A stretch of DNA of 64,000 nt from Ulva prolifera (lineage: Eukaryota; Chlorophyta; Ulvophyceae; Ulvales; Ulvaceae): assembly GCA_023078555.1 (NCBI GenBank), contig CM041198.1:2282800-2346799 (forward strand), written 5' to 3'. The notes beneath the pieces were generated by a model, which had not been told where the DNA came from, searched no databases, and worked only from the letters and a program-made list of their open reading frames with translations. Within the stretch, counting starts at the first letter, position 1. Each line of letters starts with the position of its first letter. Position numbers and translations under genes: made by a program. Shown one piece after another: positions 6,601 through 63,240 of this stretch.

Positions 6601-8767
6601 CGCGCCATCATGGTTAACCACACCGTGGTCAGCATGAAAGATGCAGCAGAGGAGGTCGACTTGATGCTGCGGCCGCTGCTGGTCAGCCTCGCGGTCGCGC
6701 ACCTGCGCCTCGGGGCCGACGGGGTCGCCCTCGCCTACGCCACCGCCGCCTCGCAGGTCGTGTTCCAGATGACGCCCCCTGCCGCCGCCTGTGCCTCAGC
6801 GGAGGTGCTGAACAAGTTCGGCCTGAAGACCGGGGCCTGGTCTGCGTTGCACCTGGTGCGATGCCGATGCATGATGTGCATGCACACGCACCTCAGCCTG
6901 CAAACGTGTACTCAAGCAGGTTGAGGCGGGTAAGGCAGCCCCGTGCATGTGTGCATACTATGTATAGTATACACAATATATGTACCGCCGCAGAGCCAGC
7001 TTGTACATGCACGCAGACATGCATGCATGCATGCACAGGTGCACCCCTGCAGATCCGAGCCGCAATCTCTGAATGGCTATGCAGGGCGACTTTCCCCAGG
7101 GACACGAGCTGGCGTCCCTGAAACTTGAAGCCCTTTTCGGCCTCCTGGTGTGTCACTGACCATCAACAAAGATATGACGTGGTGAGCCTTGAACGGCTTT
7201 TGAAACATTTGTCACAAGGCCTCAAACTTCCTGTACAGCCGTATCTGAGGTGCTTTGAATCAGCCTCGGTGGCCTCCATGGCGGCTCCTCCCTGGTCTGA
7301 AAAGAAGGATGCAATTTGCTGCATGCCTGTCGAGTGCCCCCTAGTCAGCGCCCCCGTAGTCACTGGGACGCGCCGAGGTGTTGTAGTCTCCGGGCGAAGG
7401 GGTAGTGATGGGAAGTGATGGGAAGTGTAGGGAGAGCCTTTGTGCCACCATTGGGAACAACCTCTTTGAAATGCGAACGCGTGCGGGGCCTGTGTTGTGC
7501 ACGGGCTCTGAGTACGTGCTGTCGAAGGGTTCCGTGCTCCATCTCGGTCAAACAACATGTGTGTTTTGTGTTAGATCAAACAAAACGCGTCTGTGTGCGA
7601 AGTGATTGCCTGGCGCAGGTGAGCGCGGTGAACTCTTGCACTCGACGTCTTCACCGACTCTGCGCCTGTGCAGGAAATCGCTGGGGTTGATGCGGTCCAG
7701 TACAAAACCGACACGGCTGCCTCGTTGGCTAAAATCGCCGACGCTCACAAGTCCGGCACGGCTCAGATCGCAGAGGGCCTCGCCAGGACAGAGAAAGAGT
7801 GGCTGGAGCACGCCCTTGGGGACGTCTCGGCCGTGCAAGCTGCAGCTGAGAGAGCAGCTGCTGACCACGGGCCGAACGCCGGGCAGCACCTGAAGCTGGA
7901 GGCGGATCGGCTCTTTGCTGCTGGCAGCTCGAAGGAGGAGCCGGTGAAGAACCGGCAGAACGTCGAGGACGCGATTCTGAAGTGGCGGGCGGCTCTGCGG
8001 CTGATCATGGACCCAGAGGGGCAAGAGGGGAAGACTGGCGGCTATGCTTGGACTATTCTCAAGCGCCGCTACCTGCACTGGGAGGAGGTGCGCCTGTGGC
8101 TCATGTTGCAACTGCAATAAAGGAGATGTGTGCATTGCCTGTTAGCAACATACACTGTTGGCACGCTTTGCTGCGTTGCCGCTAGGCTTGCAGTGCATGA
8201 TCTCATGAGCTAGAATACTCTCATGAGCTAGAAGCTTTCATTCCGCGATGAGCTCATTGAGTCCTCGCGGCGCAGATGCCGTTCGCGGCAATTTCATGGC
8301 ACGATCATATGCATGTCAGACACCGCTGCCTATATATAGGGTAGCTACTATAGAGTAGCTACTTTGCTGAGATCTCTGGAACTGTCTGGAAAGCAGAAAG
8401 CAGAGGGCCGTCACACCGTTTGAACGCGCCTCGGCACAGCAGCCCCATCTGTGATTGGACCACCTCAGCTGCTTTTTCATGGCACCCTGTCGCATTGATC
8501 TGGGGCCAGCGGATGCGGTCGAGAATACCTTGAGCCTCTGCAGTCCACGGCACAGGCCAGTGCGTGCATCGGCGCGAAGACTGACAAGGGGTGCTGCTGC
8601 AGTGCTCGCGCAATGTCGATCCCAGGGCGATACGCTACATGGACGTTGCAGCGCTCGCGGTCTTGCATATGCGCAGACGCGACATCGGGGTGAGCGCTCT
8701 GCGCATGCGCAGTATTGTGCACACCTCGCGCGCCGGCCTCCAGGATGGCGACGGCGTCACGGGCTAG
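3621..8767 (+). CDS. Family T gene A: beta-domain plus TPR-like protein (6 exons)
   Basis: Exons: 3621-3638, 4951-5763, 6562-6855, 7085-7147, 7674-8087, 8603-8767. All introns are GT-AG and phase 0; the product is 588 residues. The 18-bp first exon encodes MRHVDE. Exon 2 has an acidic, low-complexity N-terminus, then FCRKHGIDPASLPDP, then a probable beta-barrel-like domain ending GVVHRLG...KLSQ. Exon 3 carries paired helices (LRPLLVSLAVAHLRLGADGV) typical of TPRs, exon 4 a GDFPQGHEL segment, and exon 5 a TPR-like LKLEADRLFAAGSS...ILKWRAAL. Exon 6 keeps DPRAIRYMDVAAL but its tail diverges from copies B-D and lacks the KGRCxxGDWE block, so the last helix pair is altered. No catalytic motif is seen; a scaffold or protein-binding role is inferred from the TPR-like helices. 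An in-frame ATG at 4933 is an alternative start if the small first exon is not used. Confidence 0.75.
4410..4493 (+). repeat. Minisatellite in intron 1 of gene A
   Basis: About 3.5 imperfect copies of a 24-bp unit built from GAGGCCTGGCCT and GGGGCCTGGCCT. It lies in the first intron (3639-4950). The Trp/Pro/Ala-rich open frame across it is a by-product of the repeat. Confidence 0.85.
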
Positions 8768-14900: not shown

Positions 14901-16797
14901 TGCTGTGAACATGGCCGAGGAGCGCTCCTCGGCCATGTGCGTCTGGCAGAGACTCTAGACCTGCGATTTCTGCAAAGGCTGCATGCTCTGGCCAGCTTCG
15001 GATGTGCCTCACCCGGCGCTACTGCACTCATCAGCCGGGCTGTGTCTAAAGGCGCGCCAGCACTGTCCTACAATGGGCGAACCTTGGGCCGTTGCAGCTG
15101 AGAGTTCAGGTGGTGGCCACGGCGCCTCTCACCATCTCGGCTGTAAGAGCCCACAAGCGCCCTGGTCCTTCACACTCAGCAGCAACGGGAGGTAGGGCCA
15201 GAGTTGCATGCATGGCGTGTTGCCCTCGAGTCTGACCTCCTGCAGCAAGCGTCAAGCATCAATCGCCATGCCGCAATACCACATTCGTGGGCATCTTCAC
15301 AGGGTATCCTATGGCTTGAGTCCCGCTGCACAATTACAACCTGCGGAACAGGTGATCGCCTCCAAGCTGCAGGTTAAAGCTGGAACCGTTGACTGGTTGT
15401 GCAGGGTAATTTTCCAGAAGGACATGAGCTGCAGCCACTGGATGCTCTTGCCCACGTTGGCCTCCTCGTGAGTTTCTGTTCATCATCTTGAATGTGACGT
15501 ATTGTGCTTGAACGATGCATCTCTGACCGGGTGCTGATCTCTGCATAGCCCTAGCAGCCCTTGATGTGGTATCTAGCAGTCTCATGAATATTGGGCTTCA
15601 GGGAGGCTTCTGCGTGGCCTTCAACGCAGGACGTAATGTTCCATGTACATTTTCTGGGTGCTCGATATCTGCAACACCACAGCAGGCACCACATCCTTGC
15701 TTACAACAACAATTAGTGGAAATGGAAATGATAGCACATCTCTTGCCTGCTTGTATAGTGTGCGCCGCTGGGTGATGATGGCCATCGACACCCACACTTC
15801 TCTTGACGAAGTCTGTGTCTACACAGGAGGCTGCCGGAATCGATCCGACCCGGCGGAATATAGATGTAGATACCCACATCACCCACGCCATCAACGCCGG
15901 CCTTACCCAGATTGCAGAGGGGCTCTCAAAGACGGAGGTGAAGTGGCTGGAGCACGGCCTCGGGGACGTCGCGGCCGTGCAGGCCTCGGCAGAGCGAGCG
16001 GCTACGAATCATGGCCCGAAAGCCGCGATGCGGCTGAAGGTTGAGGCAGACCGGCTGTTTGCGGCGGGCAGCACAACACAGCAGCCGCTGAAGAACCGAG
16101 GGAAGGTTGAGGAGGCGGTGACGAAGTGGCGGGCGGCGCTGTGGCTGATGCTGGATGCAGAACGGCTGGAGGGAAAGACAGGATACCACGCCTGGGCAAT
16201 CCTGAACGGCCGCTACTTGCACTGGTCCGAGGTGTGCATCTGCCTCGCATTTGAGCTGCTTTCGATGCCTGCCCACGCCATGCAGTTCGTGGACGCCTGA
16301 TGCTTCGCTGATGCGCATGCAGCGCACTCTTCGACGATCATCATGAATGAATTCCGCCCTCTGGAGAACCCCGACATGCACGTGCACGGGAACAGGCCAT
16401 GCCAATGTAATCATGTCCGACATTCGAGCGCCGTTGGGCACCTATGCATGCCCTGTCGAGCCGCATTCCTCCTTGACGGTGGCAAGCCGGCGCGTGGCGC
16501 CGAGCCTGCTGCCGCGGCTTGCAAACCCGAGCAGGCATCATGCATGCGCATGGCTCAGCAAAACGGAAGCCATCGATGGAGGCTGAGCTATGCCTGCCGC
16601 TGCAGAGGGGTGGAGTGGAGCCCAAGGCGCTGCGCTACATGGACCTCGCGTCGCTGACTGTCATGCGGGCTGAGCACTGCAACGTCCACGGTCTTCGCAC
16701 CAACGTGTACAAGGGCCGCTGCGACCTGGGAGACTGGGAGGGCGCTCTCGATGATGCCCTCAGCGCCAGCCTCAGCAAGCTGGACATCTCCTTGTGA
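11911..16797 (+). CDS. Family T gene B: beta-domain plus TPR-like protein (6 exons)
   Basis: Exons: 11911-11928 (MRVVNE), 12673-13515, 13680-13973, 15405-15467, 15827-16231, 16606-16797. All introns are GT-AG and phase 0, coding 604 residues without a break. After a Ser/Asp-rich N-terminus comes FCREHGIDPASLPDPAPAAD (about residues 105-125), then the beta-rich domain (NLALCGRLKTHGEP, VFDPGFAALTPAEFAAEAV, FPAGTAVALIGFEM) to about residue 287. Exon 3 gives LRPLLVSLAVAHLRLGADGI, exon 4 GNFPEGHELQPLDALAHVGL, exon 5 the TPR-like VEADRLFAAGS...VTKWRAALWLML, and exon 6 KALRYMDLASLTVMR and KGRCDLGDWEGALDDAL, ending DISL. With D it is the best-preserved copy and a good reference for the family. Function unknown; helical repeats suggest protein-protein binding. 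It probably has no signal peptide or membrane segment. Confidence 0.8.
14340..14890. other. AT-rich island inside intron 3 of gene B
   Basis: About 550 bp with clearly lower GC than all surrounding DNA (many A/T runs such as TTTAAATTCAAAGG). No open frame or element ends are evident. It lies within the 1.4-kb intron between exons 13680-13973 and 15405-15467, so it is probably an insertion of foreign composition. Paralogues A, C and D have no matching segment. Confidence 0.6.
14909..14938. repeat. Perfect 30-bp palindrome
   Basis: The sequence is its own reverse complement over 30 bp, centred on AGCGCT, with CCGAGG/CCTCGG arms and CATG ends. It sits directly downstream of the AT-rich island in intron 3 of gene B. 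It could form a cruciform or hairpin; no function can be assigned. Confidence 0.85.
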
Positions 16798-23988: not shown

Positions 23989-25813
23989 CACGGGGGGGAT
24001 AAGAGTAGCGGGCAGGAATGGCAGTCAAGGCCGCATCGCACTGCCGGGCGCCCGTACTCGGCCCCTGTGAAGGCCGCCGCATCATGCGTGATGTACCTGC
24101 AACCTCCTGGCTTCACAGCGCTGAAACTGAGCTGCATTGATCGCCACTGCAGACCAAACGTTTCTGCTCCGCGTTCTGTCGCCCTGACCCCAACTGGGAG
24201 ATGATCTCCTTCGGCTTGGCCAATCCCATGGGCAGCATGAAGAAATCACAAGAGGAGGTCGACGTGATGCTGCGGCCGCTGCTGACCAGCCTCGCAGTGG
24301 CGCACCTGCGCCTCGGGGCTGATGGGACCGCCCTCGCCTACGCCACCGCCGCCTCGCAAGTTATCTTCCAGGAGGCGCCCCGCGCCGCCGCGTGCGTCGC
24401 CGCGCAGCCTGAGGTGCTCAACAGGCTCGGCCTGAAGACCGGGGCCTGCGCCGCGCTGTACATGGTGCGATGCCAGTGCATGCTGTGCATGCACACAAGG
24501 CAGAAGATATCCGGTGTCTAGAGTCTGCACACCACGCGCGCTCCTGTGATGCGCATGGGCCGTGCCGCGAAGTCTCCGCCAGTCTGTGTGACTGCACCTC
24601 TCTGAGTGTTGGGCAATTGCGTTGTGAACACATTGTCAGTGGCACACTGCTGGCAACGGAGTGTCTCCAATGCATGAATGCTTGTACGCATTGCTATGCT
24701 GGCCCAGCGGACTTCCCTATAGCTACCGTTCTGCTCGAGGTATGTCATTCAGTGGCTACCAGCATGGTAACTTTAGGGCATATGCATGTGCCTCGCCAGG
24801 CCACTTCGCGTGCGCCATGCACGGTGGCCTGCTGCGCTGTTGCAACAATTGGAGGCATCTATGCTGCTGAAGCAGACCGCACAGAAGCTTTGCTGGTGTG
24901 CTGATCGGACGGTGATCAATGTTCACATCTCTTCTCTTGACAACATTTTGTGCTCGTGCAGGAGATTGTTGCAGCCGATCCGGATCCTGCCCAACATGAC
25001 CAAAATACGGACGACACCATTCGCCACGCCATCAGAGCCGGTGTGAATCAAATCGCAGAGGGCCTCGCTAGGACAGAGGAGGAGTGGCTGGAGCACGCCC
25101 TCGGGGACGTCACAACCGTGCAGGGCGAGCGGTAAACGACCACGGCCCGGAAGCCGCCACGCAGCTCAAATTGACCGCAGCCCGGCTGTTTGCCGCTGGC
25201 AGCTCGCCGCACGAGCCACCGAATGACAGGGGGAAGGTTGAGGAGGCGGTGACGAAGTGGCGGGCGGCTCTGTGGTTGGTGTTGGATCCGCTCGCGGAGG
25301 AGGGCACGACTGGGTATGATGCCTGGAGCATCATCAACAGCCGCTGTCTGCTTGGGGATGTGCGTCTCTATCTTGCAAAACGGGTACTACTTGAAAGTCA
25401 TACTTCGGATGAGTTCGCTGCCTGCGTACGTGCTCCTCCGTGTAGCGCTTGAGCTTGATTTCGTTGCTGCTTGGCTGAGGGCGACACGTGCAGCTCACCA
25501 TCCAGGGGCATATTGTAGTTGGTCCACTCCCGGAGCGGGCTCTGTCGGTGACGTCCTCCAGAGTGACCACGTTGGGTGCCGTGGAGACCGCGGAGCACCG
25601 TTGCACCACGCCACCGCTTTCACGGGAATGCGCCCCAGCACATCAGCCCCAGCCGCGCCAGTGCCACCTAAAGCTCGTGCTTTGGCCACGCCAGAGCACG
25701 CTGCCGATGCCTCACGGTGCTTACATCCTGCCAAGCCTGCTCTTAAGAGCAAAATTTTGCCCGCGCATGCCCCGGAAATGCCTTGAGACGGGTGTGACGC
25801 TGAGAAGGGCTGC

Positions 25814-25932
25814 CAATGCAGCACTGGTGGGTCACGGTGCAGCATATCCAGGGCTGCCATCCGGAAATTAGACCTGAATGTGCGGGAATTGTTCCACATG
25901 ATCGGGCCCGACGACCCAGCACTGCAATGCAG
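25814..25932. mobile_element. hAT-type MITE inserted at the last splice acceptor of gene C
   Basis: The element 25822-25924 (103 bp) starts CACTGGTGGG and ends CCCAGCACTG, with inner inverted words GGGCCCGACGACCC. Perfect 8-bp duplications CAATGCAG flank it (25814-25821, 25925-25932). The right copy directly abuts the last exon of gene C at 25933, so the duplicated octamer is the 3' splice site. Insertion therefore left a working acceptor on the exon side. Confidence 0.85.
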
Positions 25933-26369
25933 GCGGCTGAGTCCTACGATCCCAAGTCGCTGCGTTACATGGACCTTGCGTCGCTGCTTGTCATGCGGAC
26001 GCGCCACGTCCATCTCAGCAAACTACGCAAAGACGTGTTCAAGGCGCGCTGCGACCTCGGTGACTGGGAGGGCGCTCGCGACGACACGCTGGTCGCCAGC
26101 CTCAGCAACTTGTAGCTGGACATCTCCCGGCGACCTCTTCAATATCCTGTGTGAAACGCCACATGATCGTCTCTGTCTGGTATCGAGCGTGGTTTGGATG
26201 AAGTAGGTTGTGCCTTCCAACTGCAGCACGGAGATGTAATGTGAGTGAGGATTCACGAAAGGTCGGGCCCGTGTATGGCAGAACAATAGTCAAACAACAC
26301 TGGCTGTGCCAAGATGTAAATGTGGTCAACACACACTACGGCTGCAGAAAGTCGTGGGTGAAGGATGGG

Positions 26370-33600: not shown

Positions 33601-34687
33601 CCACCTCGGCCGCGCCATCAAGGCCGGCATGACCCAGATTGCAGAGGGGCTCGCCAAGACGGAGAAGGAGTGGCTGGAGCACGGCCTCGGGGACGTGCCG
33701 GCCGTGCAGGCTGCAGCGGAGCGAGCGGCCAACAACCACGGCCCGGAAGCCGCCACGCAGCTCAAGCTGGAGGCAGACCGGCTGTTTGCGGCTGGCAGCT
33801 CGCCGCAGGAGCCGCTGAAGAACCGAAGGAAGGTTGAGGAGGCGGTGACGAAGTGGCGGGCGGCGCTGTGGCTGATGCTCGACCCATTGGGACAGGAAGG
33901 CAGGACAGGGTTCTATGCCTGGTCGGTCCTTAACGGCCGTTACACGCTGTGGGACGAGGTGCGTCTCGAGATCTCGGTTGCATTTAAAAGATCAAATGTG
34001 CTGATGAGCTACGCCCTCATGAGATAGGTTGTTATGAGCTCTAGCCTTGCGACGCTGCCTGCCTGTTCGACGCAGAGCGTGTGTGCTTTGTTGCTTTGCG
34101 GTCTGGATTGTTGCTGACAGATGTGCCACGGAGTCGCGCTTCAAACAGTAACTTGCAAGCACACCGCGTGGACGATGTGGCGTGTGGTCAATTGCCCGTG
34201 TATGACCATCCAGCGCAAGCCAGCACTGAAACCGTGGCACACGAATTTGTGTCTACCAGTGTCCTTATACCACAGCCATAGATTCACTGCCCGCTGCGCA
34301 TCACTTGGCAGCCAATTGCTTGCATGAGATTGGATCCGAATCGATCAAGTCCTCATGTTTGCGATTTATGTTGTGTCGTCTGGCCCGATCCCTTAAAACA
34401 GCTATAGATGTTTTGGGCTTATTCCTGGTCAGCAGCCGTGACAACTTTGCAAGGCGACCAAAACGCGATCTTGAGGGGGGCTGCGGCTGCAGGCAAGTGG
34501 CATCATCGAGCCCAAGGCGCTGCACTACATGGACCTCGCTGCCCTCACTGTCATGCGTGACTGCCACGTCAACCTCACAGCTCTGCGGTCCAATGTCTAC
34601 AAGGGGCGCTGCAAGGTCGGGGACTGGGAGAGCGTCCTGGACGATGCCCTCGGGGCCAGCCTCCACAAGCTGGACATCTCCGTGTGA
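30681..34687 (+). CDS. Family T gene D: beta-domain plus TPR-like protein (6 exons)
   Basis: Exons: 30681-30698 (MRLDDE), 31446-32228, 32334-32627, 33091-33153, 33554-33958, 34493-34687. All introns are GT-AG and phase 0, and the frame is open throughout (585 residues). Residues about 7-90 are acidic and Gln/Pro-rich; YCREHGIDPATLP lies near residue 96; the beta-rich domain runs to about 267 (NLALCGRLKTHGEP, LPPAEFAAAAV, GVVHRLGDAELPPLKLSQ). Exon 3: LRPLLVSLAVAHLRLGADGV. Exon 4: GHFPSGHALEPVETIGHAGL. Exon 5: IAEGLAKTEKEWLEHGLGDV, then TPR-like LKLEADRLFAAGSS...VTKWRAALWLML. Exon 6: PKALHYMDLAALTVMR, KGRCKVGDWESVLDDAL, ending DISV. Function unknown; a soluble binding or scaffold protein is the likeliest reading. 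Intron 3 carries a SINE-like insertion that leaves the splice sites intact. Confidence 0.8.
31247..31284. repeat. Hairpin, 16-bp perfect stem, in intron 1 of gene D
   Basis: TGTACCCGCCCTGGCA (31247-31262) and TGCCAGGGCGGGTACA (31269-31284) are exact inverted repeats around a 6-nt loop TTGCAT. It lies in the 747-bp first intron. It may be a cruciform or a structured intron element; no paralogue shares it. Confidence 0.85.
32843..33078 (-). mobile_element. SINE-like repeat A (long form) in intron 3 of gene D
   Basis: The insert 32860-33061 lies in reverse orientation: its right end reads TTTGTCCTTGTAACA, the complement of the repeat A start. Direct repeats CACATCACAACCTGTGC (32843-32859) and CACATTACAACCTGTGC (33062-33078) match at 16 of 17 positions. 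The body is TG-rich and ends with GGTTGCTGCTCGCGCTGCTA-type repeat A sequence. The insertion stops 12 bp before the exon 4 acceptor and leaves it intact. Confidence 0.8.
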
Positions 34688-34765: not shown

Positions 34766-34883
34766 GGATGCAGCAGTGTTGGGCCATCGGGTCCGATCAC
34801 GTAGAACAATTCCTAATATCCAGGTCTATTTTTTGGGTGGCAGCCCTGGAAATGCTGCAAAGCGACCCAACACTGGGATGCAG
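34766..34883. mobile_element. hAT-type MITE (102 bp) with perfect TIRs and target duplication
   Basis: The element 34774-34875 starts CAGTGTTGGG and ends CCCAACACTG, a perfect 10-bp terminal inverted repeat. It is flanked by perfect 8-bp duplications GGATGCAG (34766-34773, 34876-34883). Inner sequence AATATCCAGGTCTATTTTTT and GGGTGGCAGCCCTGGAAATG identifies the family also at 25822, 54250, 47501, 57689 and 63161. It lies 80 bp after the stop of gene D. Confidence 0.9.
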
Positions 34884-47397: not shown

Positions 47398-47500
47398 CTG
47401 CACCGCACACCCCTATACCGCACACCCCTGTCACACGCGAGATCTCGTGGCCCACGGACAGGCTCTCTGTTGTCTGTGCACGTGTCGGGTTGCCATGCAG

Positions 47501-47580
47501 CATTGTTGGGGCTCCCACCCGAGAATTTGTCCTGAGTGATCGGAATTGTCCAATGTGATCGGGTCCGAAGACCCGACCCT
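47501..47580. mobile_element. Degraded hAT-type MITE upstream of R1
   Basis: CATTGTTGGGGCTCCCACCC, then GATCGGGTCCGAAGACCCGA match the MITE family of 34774. The left flank is again CCATGCAG, but no second copy of it is visible on the right, so the right end is truncated or diverged. Confidence 0.55.
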
Positions 47581-47879
47581 GGTCTGTACACGCGAAGAAG
47601 CACACATTGTGGGCTGAGCTCTGCTGATGTCCCCTGAAGGACAGGTGATGAGTGGAAGCAGGGCCCTGGGCGCAGCATGCTTTGCTGGCTGAGCTAGAAG
47701 GGCCGGCAGCTCCCCGTGATTTCAGTGTCTACAGGCCAACTACTGCTACACGTGGGACGACTGCGAAGGGGACACAACGGTTCGCACAACGTCTGCAGTG
47801 CCGCAGCAGTGCGCTGCGGAAGCCAATTCCCCAGGCCCGAGCGACTTCAAGATGAAATCACAATCACGCATGCGGGGAA

Positions 47880-52052: not shown

Positions 52053-55000
52053 TCATCGCCGCAAACCTAGCTGCCCGGCAAACGCGAGCACGGCCAGCAC
52101 AGCAGCTGCGCCGACACGCTGTGTGCTGGCCGCGCTGGTCTCCACCAGCACACCGCCTGCCGCAGACGGTGCGTCTCGTGTAGCGTTGAGGCTGGGAACG
52201 AGACCTGTGCCCGCTTGTGGCGGTGCGGCCGCGCCGATTGCGAGTGGACCAGGGCGCGGCTCGGCGGGATAGCACTGGATATGCTCTAGGTCTCCGATGT
52301 CCGCAAAGCCGAGGTCACAAAGCGCCTGCTGGGTGTAGAGGATGTTGCACTTCTGCGCCGTGCAGCACCACATGTGGTAGGTGTTGGGATGGTAGCCTTC
52401 GCACGACTTCAGTGCCAGGATGCTGCAAACAGCCTGCATTCTGAGAATGGTGCACTCTCAAGTGATCACTGCGGTGCATGCAGGCCACATTGGGTCAAGG
52501 TACCCAAGCAGTTGCGCGGTTTCAAGGTGTACTTGTCATGCGCATGCTATCTGCCGCTGGCAGTCCACAATTTGTGTATGGGGGTGTGTGTGTTACAAGC
52601 ACAAAGCAAGCGAGGCAGGTAGCACTGCAAGCAAGAACCAGGGGAACCGCACACCACGCAGCAAGCCACACGAAGCTCACACCAAAACACCCACGCAACG
52701 GCAGCACCCGCGCCGGACACAGCCACACAGCCACACAGCCACACACACGCCCACGGGCCCGGACGCGCTGGTGGGCGGCGTGTGCTGCCGCGGCCGTGTG
52801 CCCCGGCCCCCGCACACGGCGCGCCTCGGCTGTGCTCCGTTCCGGGTTTCGCGGATGGGGGCGCCCCCATGTGTGTTGTCCCGGCGCTCGGGGCTGGCCT
52901 GGTCGGGGCATTGGGGCGGGGGTCCTGGGGGCCCCCGGCGGCTTCCGTGTGGGGCCGGCGCCGGCCGGGCCGCTGCATGGGGCTGCCGCAGCCGCGCGGG
53001 CGGCGGGGTCGTGTGGCGTGTTGGCGTGTGGGTTTGTGGGTGCTTGGGTGTGTGTTTGGGTTTGGGTCTGGGCCGCGTGCGGGTGCGTGGGTGCGTGGGT
53101 CGGGTTTCAGTGTGTGGTTCGTGTGGTGGTGTGTGGGCGCGTGGGGATGTGTGGGTGCTTGTTCTGCCTTGGCGTTGGCTGTTGCTCTCCTGCTGCGTGC
53201 GCATTGCGTTGTTCGTGCTCTCCCTTTTGCTCCTGGCGGTGCTACCGGCCCCTCCGGCTTTGTCCTTTGTAACACACACGCCCACGCCCACACCCACACG
53301 CCCACCCCCAGCCGAACCCCGCCCACCAGCCAGGCGCACGAGACCCGGAAGTACAAGCAGCCAAGGCCGCCCAGCAAACAAATAGCGAGACCGCAACAAA
53401 AACCCCAACCCGGGGAGGCCCCCGCCTCCCCCAGCACAGCCCCCCAAGCCCAGCCCTCGCACACCAACCCTCCCGCCCGCAAACCCACACCCGTAACCCC
53501 CAAAGTCTAGCCCAGCCCGCCCAAACTACCCGGCTGCGTCCCAACGGCGGGCCACAAGCAGGCGCACGGGGAAGACACCAGAGAAACGCGGCACGCCTAA
53601 GCCGCCATCACAACAAAGCGGACGAGGCTGCGAGCGCACACGCAGCGGCGACTGCCCACCACGCAGCCCGGGCGGGCGCGCAGCGCCGCTCAGGCCGGGC
53701 GGCCTGTGATGGGGGTGTGTGTAGCATCTAGCTAATTCACATCTGGCCATCTTGCCACGTACGCAGTGTAAGCCACACGATGATCGCATGCATGATGTAC
53801 ACCGGAGCTTTGCTTGGGTCAGCTCAGCATGAGCGCTCACTTTGGCTCAGCACGAGAGCCCTGAAGCGCCCCTGCAGACACATGAAGGCACACGGTCGCG
53901 CGATCGCGGCATGCTGCAGCGCTAGCACACCTGTTCGTGAAGCAAACTCGCGCAGACGCCCCGAGGTCGAAGAACTCCATGAAGCCACTGTCAAATGTGC
54001 CTTCGTACGTCACATTGGGCAGCAGCAGCGTCATGTTGGAGAAGGTGAGGGTGGTGCCGGGGGGCGTGTCCCGGGCCTGCAGGCTGAAGACGGTGCCGGC
54101 GTAGAACGGCGCAAACACGGTCGGGATGCGCCGCAGCGACACATCATTGGCAGCAGCAGCAGATACCGACTCCCCCTGGATTGTTACACCCGGGAACTCC
54201 ACGAGGGGCGTAGTGGCGGCATCTTGCGGTGGGACCGGGACCTGCACACCAGTGTTGGGGCGTCGGGTCCGATCACATGTAACAATATTCCGAATATTCA
54301 GGTCTAATTTCTGGGTGGCAGACCTGGAGATGCTGCAAAGTGACCCAATACTGCTGCACACAGGCCAGCTGTGATCCGTACGATATCGCGTGTATGTGCG
54401 TGTGTGTGTGCGCCATGCTCAATCATCAACGGCAGCACATGCATGTGGCATGAGGATGAAGGCGGCGAGGCGGGCAGCACCGTGAAACAGCAAGCATTGC
54501 TAGAACACAACCGCCGACCCGGTCCAAGGCACCCACGGCAGCAACAAATGCAGTTCGACATGCATGGCCGCACACACCGACGTGAGCAGCTTGCGGACAT
54601 TCTGAACGGGTCGAGACATCCAGAATCGGCCTACTCAAGCTGTTATTGGAGCATCACCCCACCTAATTGGAGCATCCAACATGCATCGCATGCTGCTACA
54701 GACATGGCCGATCAATGCTGCATGTGTGGGTGCTGCAAATCATGTGAACACGTTCAGCAGGAGATCTGCAGACCGCGATGACACAAGCCTTGGAGCTGTT
54801 CATGTGTGCAGTTGTGGTGAGTAGTGTAAGTGCGCGTGGAATTGTACCAGTCTCAGACCTCAGTGGATTTGTATGCTTGAGGGATGTGTGCACATGTTGT
54901 GGAAACATTGGCATCATGCCATTCACCCACGGCATCTGCCTTTGGATCAGCTGCAGCACCCGAGGACATTGCATTGATGGCCATATCAGCAGATTCGAAG

Positions 55001-57542: not shown

Positions 57543-59531
57543 GCCAGACCACCGACTCGAGTCACCCCAACACACCTTGATCATCGACTCACGGAGCGAT
57601 CACCGCATCACGCTCCAGCGGATGAGCCGCACCACAAGGCACGAAGCTCCGGGATGTACCGGTGGTGGTGCTGAGGACAGCTGTGGAGCAGTGCGGGGCC
57701 ATATTGCAGCATTGTCAGGGCTGCAAGCCTGTAATTAGACCTGAAAATGGGGGTGTGGCCTATGTGGTAGACCCAACGGCCCATCAGCGCTGTGGAGCCC
57801 CAGCTGGTGCTTCACAGCAGCATGCTAGTGGTGCACTACGAGTAGTGCACCTCTCAGGTGGTACTGGCGGCCGCGCTTGGGGCGCTACATTATGATGGCA
57901 CGCGAACGCTGCTGTCGAGTCAGAGGTGTGAATTGCGGAACGCCCTACTTCCTTCTCTCGTTGGCTCTGCAACGCAGGATTCAAGCAGTGAAGGCAGCGA
58001 GTTCGAGTGTGCCATCTTGCATTATAATGGGCTGACAAGTCAAGTGTGTGTCACTGGTGGTTGTGTAAATGCTTCCCTGCCTGATGTTGCGTGTCATTGT
58101 ATTTTTTTTCGTGAGCATCACTCAGAAAACAGGTAAGCAGCATGTTCATGTATGCTGCGTGGCAAAATGTTGCTTGCGTGCCAACATAGACTGTCAGCCT
58201 GTCAGTGTCAGGTATTCATGCCATGCCATGTCGTTGGTGTCATCAGCACGTCAGACCTGCATTGTCTCCCACATATGTCTCCCGTACACAGCACGTGTAC
58301 TACCCAAACTTGAGATGCACACCATATAAAGCAACTTACTGCTACCCAGCCTGGTGCATTCTCCGAAGCCATACTCAGGCCCGGTAGCTCAGAGGTGATA
58401 CGCACAGCACCTGTTCGAAGCTCAGCCAGGTGTACATGCAGCAACCATGCAGGTTTCGGTGATGCCATGAGGTTTGAAACCCAGGTATGCCACCACTGAG
58501 AGCCTAACAGTCTATTCGTAGATGGCAGAGTCCTTTTCCTGCCGGGTTGAGGCCGATCGCCGGGCGCATTATTACAGTGGCACTGCTGTTGATGGCAACT
58601 GTCGTTTTCTCTAGACAGCCACTTGCTTTGACGCACTGGCAGAGAGGTATGCACCTAGCTACCTATGTTCTCAGCTCATGAGCATGTATGTATGGCTTGT
58701 GCCTTCCGTTTGTCGCTTTTCATGCAGACGCTGCACTGTAGTGGAACTGTGAGGGCCATTGCTAGCTTAGACCGCCCCGACAAGGCGAATGCACCTCCAG
58801 GGGTGGTGTCTCGAACCCACTTGATATTAATATCCCGGGTTATGGCGATCGCGCTCCGCGGATACAGGGCGTCTTCATGAGCTCTTGCCGTCGGGCGTGT
58901 CCGAGGTGCACGGTCGCCACACGAGACACTGAGAAGTGTGCGGCATGATGTACATTCCTACGGCGCACTACTGTAGACATCATACATGATGTTTTTTTGT
59001 GTTCTTTTACTTTTACTTGAACTGGGCTATGGTCTTGCTCTGTGCATGGGGATGACGCCGGCGCGTCGGCCTGCCGGCCTGAAATGTTGCCACATTTATT
59101 GCCCGTCGACGTTCCAACAACGCCATTTACCGTCAACATACATATTTGTGACTTTTGAATGCATTATGACTTCGGGGACTGTGCATGCGCGTGTGGGACA
59201 CCAGCGGAATTGTCAGCGATGCAACACACAGCTCACATGCGGTGGCTGCACACCTACGCACAGTTTAGGCCTCGCAGCACCCACACGATGGCACTATGAT
59301 TGCCAGAATATAGTGCCTGACAGCTATGTGCATGAGGAGAACCTGCTTCGATGATCTGCCAAGCTGGAGCAACTGGCTGTAGCTTCACGCCGTCCTGTAC
59401 CTGCTGATACAGCGAGGGTGTTTTGTGGTTTCCATTGTATCCACACTGATGCACTGAACATATGGGAAGAACGTGCCCGCAGGAACAAGCTCGTCTCGCA
59501 AACATGATCGGTGCTTCAGGTATCACAGAGC
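57543..59531. other. Spacer upstream of gene G
   Basis: It contains a partial MITE (about 57689-57750, GGGCTGCAAGCCTGTAATTA) and a weak tRNA-like stretch at 58383-58430 (GGTAGCTCAGAGGTGATACG, then TGTTCGAAGCTC). The two pol III-like boxes there are about 30 bp apart and no acceptor stem can be drawn. No coding region is supported. The promoter of gene G must lie near the right end but has no motif I recognise. Confidence 0.45.
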
Positions 59532-63160: not shown

Positions 63161-63240
63161 CAGTGTTGGGTCGCATTGCCGCATTTCCAGGACTGCCACC
63201 CGGAAATTAGACCTGAATATTCGGAAATTCTACACTGCTG
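63161..63240. mobile_element. Truncated hAT-type MITE directly after gene G
   Basis: CAGTGTTGGGTCGCATTGCC, then CAGGACTGCCACCCGGAAAT and TAGACCTGAATATTCGGAAA match the family of 34774, but the right third is missing. It begins two bases after the stop codon of gene G (63157-63159), so it forms the start of the 3'UTR. Confidence 0.7.

Follow-up and report, generated by a model that had tools for sequence, protein, structure and literature searches.

hAT elements carry short inverted ends that begin with CAGNG. The target of one of them, hobo, is palindromic and was given as GTNCGNAC / NTNNNNAN (PMC3276498). The mar elements of Drosophila and the BniHAT elements of Brassica are hAT MITEs and near relatives in kind of the family reported here. 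With known hAT elements and MITEs, this family shares a short non-coding element, CAGTG-type inverted ends, an 8-bp duplication and a palindromic target; it differs from them in that its target half-site is the core of the host 3′ splice site (acceptor), and in that its copies are over-represented exactly there. A search of the open literature, with most subscription journals outside its scope, returned no MITE family recognisably described as over-represented at existing acceptors.

A second point of comparison is given by the introners, which have been put forward as a main origin of new introns and which create these introns in exons, even where the duplication supplies the splice site (PMC9860276). 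The introners with TIRs and TSDs found in Aureococcus, Symbiodinium and Chrysochromulina, as presented in that study, resemble the present family in being DNA-transposon-like and in that the splice site can lie within the TSD. However, in the copy described below, designated element A, no donor was seen, and its insertion point was the end of an intron that already existed. The introner elements of Amoebophrya also combine inverted repeats with short direct repeats at the splice borders, but their description (PMC7789003) reports mostly non-canonical borders, repeats of 3-5 nt and elements that correspond to whole introns, whereas the border found here was TGCAG|G, the repeats were of 8 bp and the intron was older.

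Element A is a 103-bp hAT-type MITE placed on the plus strand at 25822..25924 of the window (the whole 64-kb stretch of DNA that was analysed), in the majority orientation relative to the gene, and its inverted ends read CACTGGTGGGTC / GACCCAGCACTG. Two perfect copies of the 8-bp target duplication CAATGCAG flanked it, both on the plus strand. The upstream copy (25814..25821) is now followed by a C (TGCAG|C), and the downstream copy (25925..25932) forms the acceptor, TGCAG|G, at which the last intron of family T copy C ends. This intron occupied 25378..25932 of the plus strand, its start being approximate because the alignment of the penultimate exon stops at 25377, and it was followed on the same strand by the last exon (AAESYDPKSLRYMDLASLL...SNL, stop) at 25933..26115, open to a TAG. 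A sequence-only reading of the window had already proposed a 103-bp MITE between perfect octamers, the right-hand one acting as the acceptor before this exon; both proposals were borne out, the latter by the alignment of paralogues. The three other aligned copies of family T presented the same last intron, with last exons starting from ~8603, ~16606 and ~34493, and TGCAG was found directly 5′ of the last exon in each of them, so that the splice site position is conserved in three paralogues. Since these paralogues carry the intron without element A, A did not create the intron, but entered the end of an existing one. A decayed relative, element G, was present in copy D of family T, on the minus strand at 34369..34474 (approximate limits); it lies within the last intron and ends ~18 nt before the acceptor (34492). 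Thus, two of the four last introns of family T contain elements of this MITE family.

These observations bear on the idea that new introns arise when the element inserts into an exon and the duplication serves as acceptor. Such an origin is favoured by the presence of TIRs, of short TSDs and of a splice site within the TSD, all of which are known from introners (PMC9860276). For element A, it was rejected, as the paralogue alignment placed the intron before the insertion. Elsewhere in the family, the left flank scored as non-coding at most acceptor copies (L109 scored 5.9-7.2 and L100 2.2), and GTGTTG is found at the ends of the element, in contrast to the G|GTGCG donor signal of this genome. 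None of the copies examined clearly combined two coding flanks with splicing at the element; L040 scored positive on both sides, without a recognisable protein. An introner origin is therefore considered extremely improbable.

A different course of events is proposed here, in which the MITE (consensus 102 bp, ends CAGTGTTGGGTC) would insert by cut-and-paste, duplicating 8 bp. Insertion on an acceptor octamer doubles this octamer, and the upstream copy then meets the first base of the element (TGCAG|C). At the acceptor copies, the downstream duplication keeps an intact TGCAG|G joined to the exon, and splicing from the unchanged donor to this downstream copy would remove the element together with the intron. 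The upstream copy may be a weaker acceptor through its +1 base. However, among the four acceptors of family T, one reads TGCAG|T (window 8600-8603), one TGCAG|A (16600-16606) and the other two TGCAG|G, which indicates that a G at +1 is not obligatory and that the upstream copy might be used, and this reduces the weight of the argument. Were splicing to use the upstream copy, an element of consensus length (102 bp) would leave 110 extra nt in the message, with a frameshift. The earlier proposal that insertion duplicates the acceptor and leaves the exon with a working site thus holds for the doubled octamer and the intact TGCAG|G, whereas the use of the downstream copy in splicing is a prediction. 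Acceptor insertions may therefore be harmless.

The family to which element A belongs was recovered genome-wide. Exact matches to its 24-base left end numbered 149 in the genome of 88.9 Mb, the reversed control giving none, and a profile search of the window and of loci L002-L088 returned 114 family hits. A perfect 8-bp duplication was present in 38 of these 114, with boundaries picked for best match, and 35 of the 38 had clean CA..TG ends. Clean CA..TG ends together with a duplication matching at 7/8 or more were present in 61 hits, 58 of which lay outside the window; the other 53 were set aside. Most copies with clean ends measured 102 bp, and the consensus inverted ends, CAGTGTTGGGTC / GACCCAACACTG, fit the hAT-type CAGNG start. 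The copies were short, non-coding, numerous and uniform in length, as MITEs are, and every hAT or MITE feature testable here was found, so the family is a non-autonomous hAT-type MITE. The 102-bp consensus corresponds to 34 codons and is open in frame 1, and ORFs cross some copies (L005, 697-1617 on the minus strand; L014), which may be due to chance. Dimer_Tnp_hAT had 16 matches in the genome, four of them in open frames of 414-489 aa; these four frames with hAT dimerisation domains (C2:2130530, C4:6825936, C4:10092314 and C10:632410) are candidate autonomous partners.

The target of the family was derived from the 35 perfect clean duplications, which gave the palindromic logo [GC]TG[CT][AG]CA[GC], with nearly flat sequence around the octamer. 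When both strands were pooled, T at position 2 and A at position 7 were each found in 47 of 70 cases, in agreement with the hAT pattern nTnnnnAn, and the duplications ended in CAG in 18/70 and in CAC in 16/70. TGCAG as a family-wide rule was rejected on these grounds, as the target is palindromic and its ends show CAC about as often as CAG. The TGCAG bias suggested by the sequence-only reading is thus no rule of the family, but one of its preferred half-sites; what does stand out is TGCAG followed by G, which was over-represented. Most of the apparent bias reflects target preference, and the half-site of the palindrome coincides with the acceptor core.

The splice signals of this genome were assessed with a codon model built from long open frames (4908 codons), in which the acceptor signature consisted of coding sequence to the right and non-coding sequence to the left. 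Ten long ORFs were scanned against Pfam, and four matched. The acceptor signature was present at 46/416 TGCAG|G sites, at 29/1262 TGCAG|H sites (by subtraction) and at 29/1328 TGCAC sites. Acceptors detectable by their coding signature are therefore mostly TGCAG|G, although the rule is not strict, and since TGCAG|G contains the half-site of the palindrome, acceptors are natural targets of the family. Donors read G|GTGCG, the signature being found at 40/321 such sites versus 26/764 with other preceding bases. The 68 acceptor-signature sites in the fetched loci showed no pyrimidine tract and were G/C-rich, with G at -6 in 50% of them. The genome also gave 38 matches to the chlorophyll a/b-binding family, and the one examined matched chlorophyll a/b-binding chains in the PDB. 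Proteins of this kind belong to the green lineage, so that the genome is likely to be that of a green alga.

The first indication of an excess at acceptors came from the base that follows the duplication. A genome-wide pattern consisting of right ends, then NNNTGCAS, then A, C or G (T excluded) was found at 97 places, and TGCAG was followed by G in 33/64 of them (52%), against a background of 587/1959 (30%; P=3e-4), the background base frequencies being those of the fetched loci and not of the whole genome. In the TGCAC control, G came next in 7/33, against 31% (P=0.93). Such an excess could arise from ascertainment, if selection holds the downstream octamer at acceptors and patterns that need it intact over-count them; in fact, the genome-wide pattern does need an intact downstream octamer, and the set of 58 copies was kept at an octamer match of at least 7/8. 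However, when copies were chosen by their upstream copy, with the downstream octamer free, G followed in 20/40, against 24.6% (P=5e-4), which means that a conserved downstream copy is not the explanation of the excess. In addition, the loci of the 58 copies had been fetched by element ends and not by the octamer. Ascertainment was accordingly held to be a very unlikely source of the excess.

The same 58 copies, fetched by element ends and with octamers matching at 7/8 or more, were compared with what the target motif alone predicts. Five of them (L034, L054, L066, L067 and L084) lay exactly at acceptor-signature sites, against an expectation of 0.39 (P=5e-5), or of 0.43 after removal of exonic weight (P=8e-5), calculated from a target matrix built from other duplications with positions taken as independent. 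These figures are the main difficulty for the view that the excess is a pure coincidence of motifs, in which the transposase favours STGYRCAS, acceptors happen to contain TGCAG, insertions in exons are lost and the remainder are neutral. In agreement with this view, the motif alone lifts acceptors ~8-fold (0.67% of the target weight versus 0.08% of the positions) and, over all duplications, neither CAG nor CAC clearly predominates at the ends. The rise of G after TGCAG from 30% to 52% genome-wide, without such an effect for TGCAC, speaks against it.

The tests conditional on TGCAG|G gave a weaker signal. In the strict one, the excess was modest, and 8/27 of the TGCAG|G copies carried the signature, compared to 46/416 sites (11%; OR 3.4, P=0.01), with A and B, a second copy from the window, below threshold; the 27 are those examined of the 33 genome-wide TGCAG|G places. 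In the window and loci L002-L088 together, the signature was present at 6/23 TGCAGG sites at elements versus 71/554 (13%) elsewhere, a result that speaks for motif coincidence, and in subsets of this comparison it was present at 0/7 in the twenty 10-kb loci and at 0/3 in the window (A and B sub-threshold). By eye, 15 of the 27 TGCAG|G places were acceptors (12 of L090-L109, plus B, L054 and L066). The twelve are those among the 20 further TGCAG|G copies, L090-L109, that had an open coding frame at the duplication, judged without a by-eye background, with L108 only probable and with L104 counted as an acceptor copy though the family match at its right end covers 26 bp only. The tests for an excess share copies and are not independent of one another. 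Taken as a whole, the evidence leaves pure motif coincidence a doubtful account, with a real but minor chance of being sufficient. Two of the TGCAG|G copies, L091 and L098, both non-acceptor, had nearly identical flanks and probably represent a duplicated segment rather than independent insertions.

The position of the copies relative to acceptors was also informative. Five were exact, against 0.08 expected at random, one lay 1-30 nt upstream (0.39 expected) and five lay 31-150 nt upstream (1.6 expected). The excess at acceptors is thus sharp, but it stands on top of a mild preference for genes, and the mild over-representation at 31-150 nt indicates that part of it could reflect such a general preference. 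The suggestion that the family is targeted to, or selected at, intron 3′ ends is upheld to the extent that exact acceptor copies go beyond the motif expectation, with less support from the conditional tests, but most copies are found elsewhere, acceptors accounting for about 1 in 12 (5/58) of the sample fetched by element ends. In three copies, a probable acceptor followed at a distance of 17 nt (L046), 4 nt (L039) or ~0-8 nt (L076) without forming a clean end of the duplication.

A sharp excess may also arise at the moment of insertion, if insertion is steered to acceptors by the transposase or by a bound host factor, for instance through nucleosome linkers or co-transcriptional complexes. 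The spike at the exact site agrees with this, as does the lack of any age difference seen between acceptor copies, neither older nor younger, and others (mean identity to the consensus 0.917, n=7, versus 0.912, n=54; P=0.49). Moreover, G|GTGCG donors also fit the half-site, and a doubled donor should be equally harmless, yet donor octamers showed no excess, G preceding GTGCG in 3/13, against 29%, in small numbers. The missing donor excess mildly favours something specific to acceptors. However, the donor numbers were judged without a motif-only expectation, the CpG in GTGCG may decay, and the flanks of the logo outside the octamer were nearly featureless, which leaves active targeting improbable. 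No orientation bias was seen at acceptors (11 versus 8 of 19 acceptor copies, comprising 17 genome copies, A and B), so that the element itself has no preferred strand there. As for a branch-point motif within the element, the k-mers upstream of acceptors were too noisy to show one.

The reading that best accounts for these results, to which a probability of about 0.63 is assigned, is that of a hAT-type MITE whose target half-site lies in the acceptor and whose insertion, as the sequence suggests, doubles the octamer and thereby keeps the acceptor, with acceptor copies exceeding the motif expectation. The excess itself would result from tolerance of such insertions together with insertion preference. 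If this reading is correct, it describes a simple and low-cost way for a mobile element to live in genes by doubling the signal at the intron end, as well as an intermediate stage, open to testing, that links introners with ordinary MITEs, and both the motif effect and the additional acceptor excess are measurable in a single genome. A stronger version, in which 3′ splice sites are a safe haven for the family because its half-site is the acceptor core, its first base alters the upstream copy, the downstream copy stays intact and its identical ends serve either orientation, is speculative and rather unlikely; were it true, the family would be one small step, the gain of a donor, from an introner.

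The genes that carry acceptor insertions were explored by scanning ten exons that start at a duplication against Pfam. Three matched above the cut-off, namely AAA_12 (L054), Vps4_C with AAA_lid_3 (L067) and UPRTase (L104), three gave weaker matches below it, namely tRNA-synt_2b (L066), Aldo_ket_red (L093) and Branch (L109), and the exons of L084, L034, L106 and L095 had no match. The tRNA-synthetase-like protein of L066 had a single further match (51% identity) in the genome, and the gene that carries the insertion is thus probably essential. Further names, assigned by eye without Pfam support, are presumed identities only: JmjC, P-type ATPase, Argonaute, protein kinase, COQ5 and, for the L066 synthetase, 'prolyl'.

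Besides A and the decayed G, the window contained five other members of the family. Element B (104 bp, minus strand, 54250..54353) was flanked by the TSD GTGTGCAG at 54242-54249 and 54354-54361, and its downstream copy lies, by eye, where an exon on the minus strand (VPVPPQDAATTPLVEFPG...) has its acceptor. A paralogue of this exon, also on the minus strand (DPIEPADAVKAPAIEFPG..., starting at ~48973), follows TTGCAG and, compared by eye, begins at the same residue as the exon of element B. Element C (minus strand, 34774..34875) had the TSD GGATGCAG (plus strand) at 34766-34773 and 34876-34883; its TGCAG appears only when the strand complementary to that of the element is read, and codon-model scoring found no acceptor signature in its flank. 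The coordinates and TSDs previously described for B and C were hence accurate, whereas C departs from the acceptor pattern. Element F (plus strand, 57689..57789) had been overlooked, and its perfect TSD, CTGTGGAG, contradicts the statement that the perfect-duplication copies of the window were three and all ended in TGCAG, as F is a fourth. The diverged element E (plus strand, ~47480..47581) had flanks GTCTGTGC / GTCTGTAC, matching at 7/8. The same copy had been described as truncated at 47501 with CCATGCAG on its left; by alignment, CCATGCAG lies inside the element (consensus GCTTTGCAGCAT), and this example was rejected as a target duplication in favour of the real flanks. Element D (plus strand, 63161..63234) corresponded to the left part of a copy whose right end was not recognisable.

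A different kind of insertion was observed in L050, where the duplication CTGTAAAC of a plus-strand element (offset 509-612) spans, by eye, a stop codon (GCC CTG TAA AC) and doubles it, which is another possibly harmless place for insertion.
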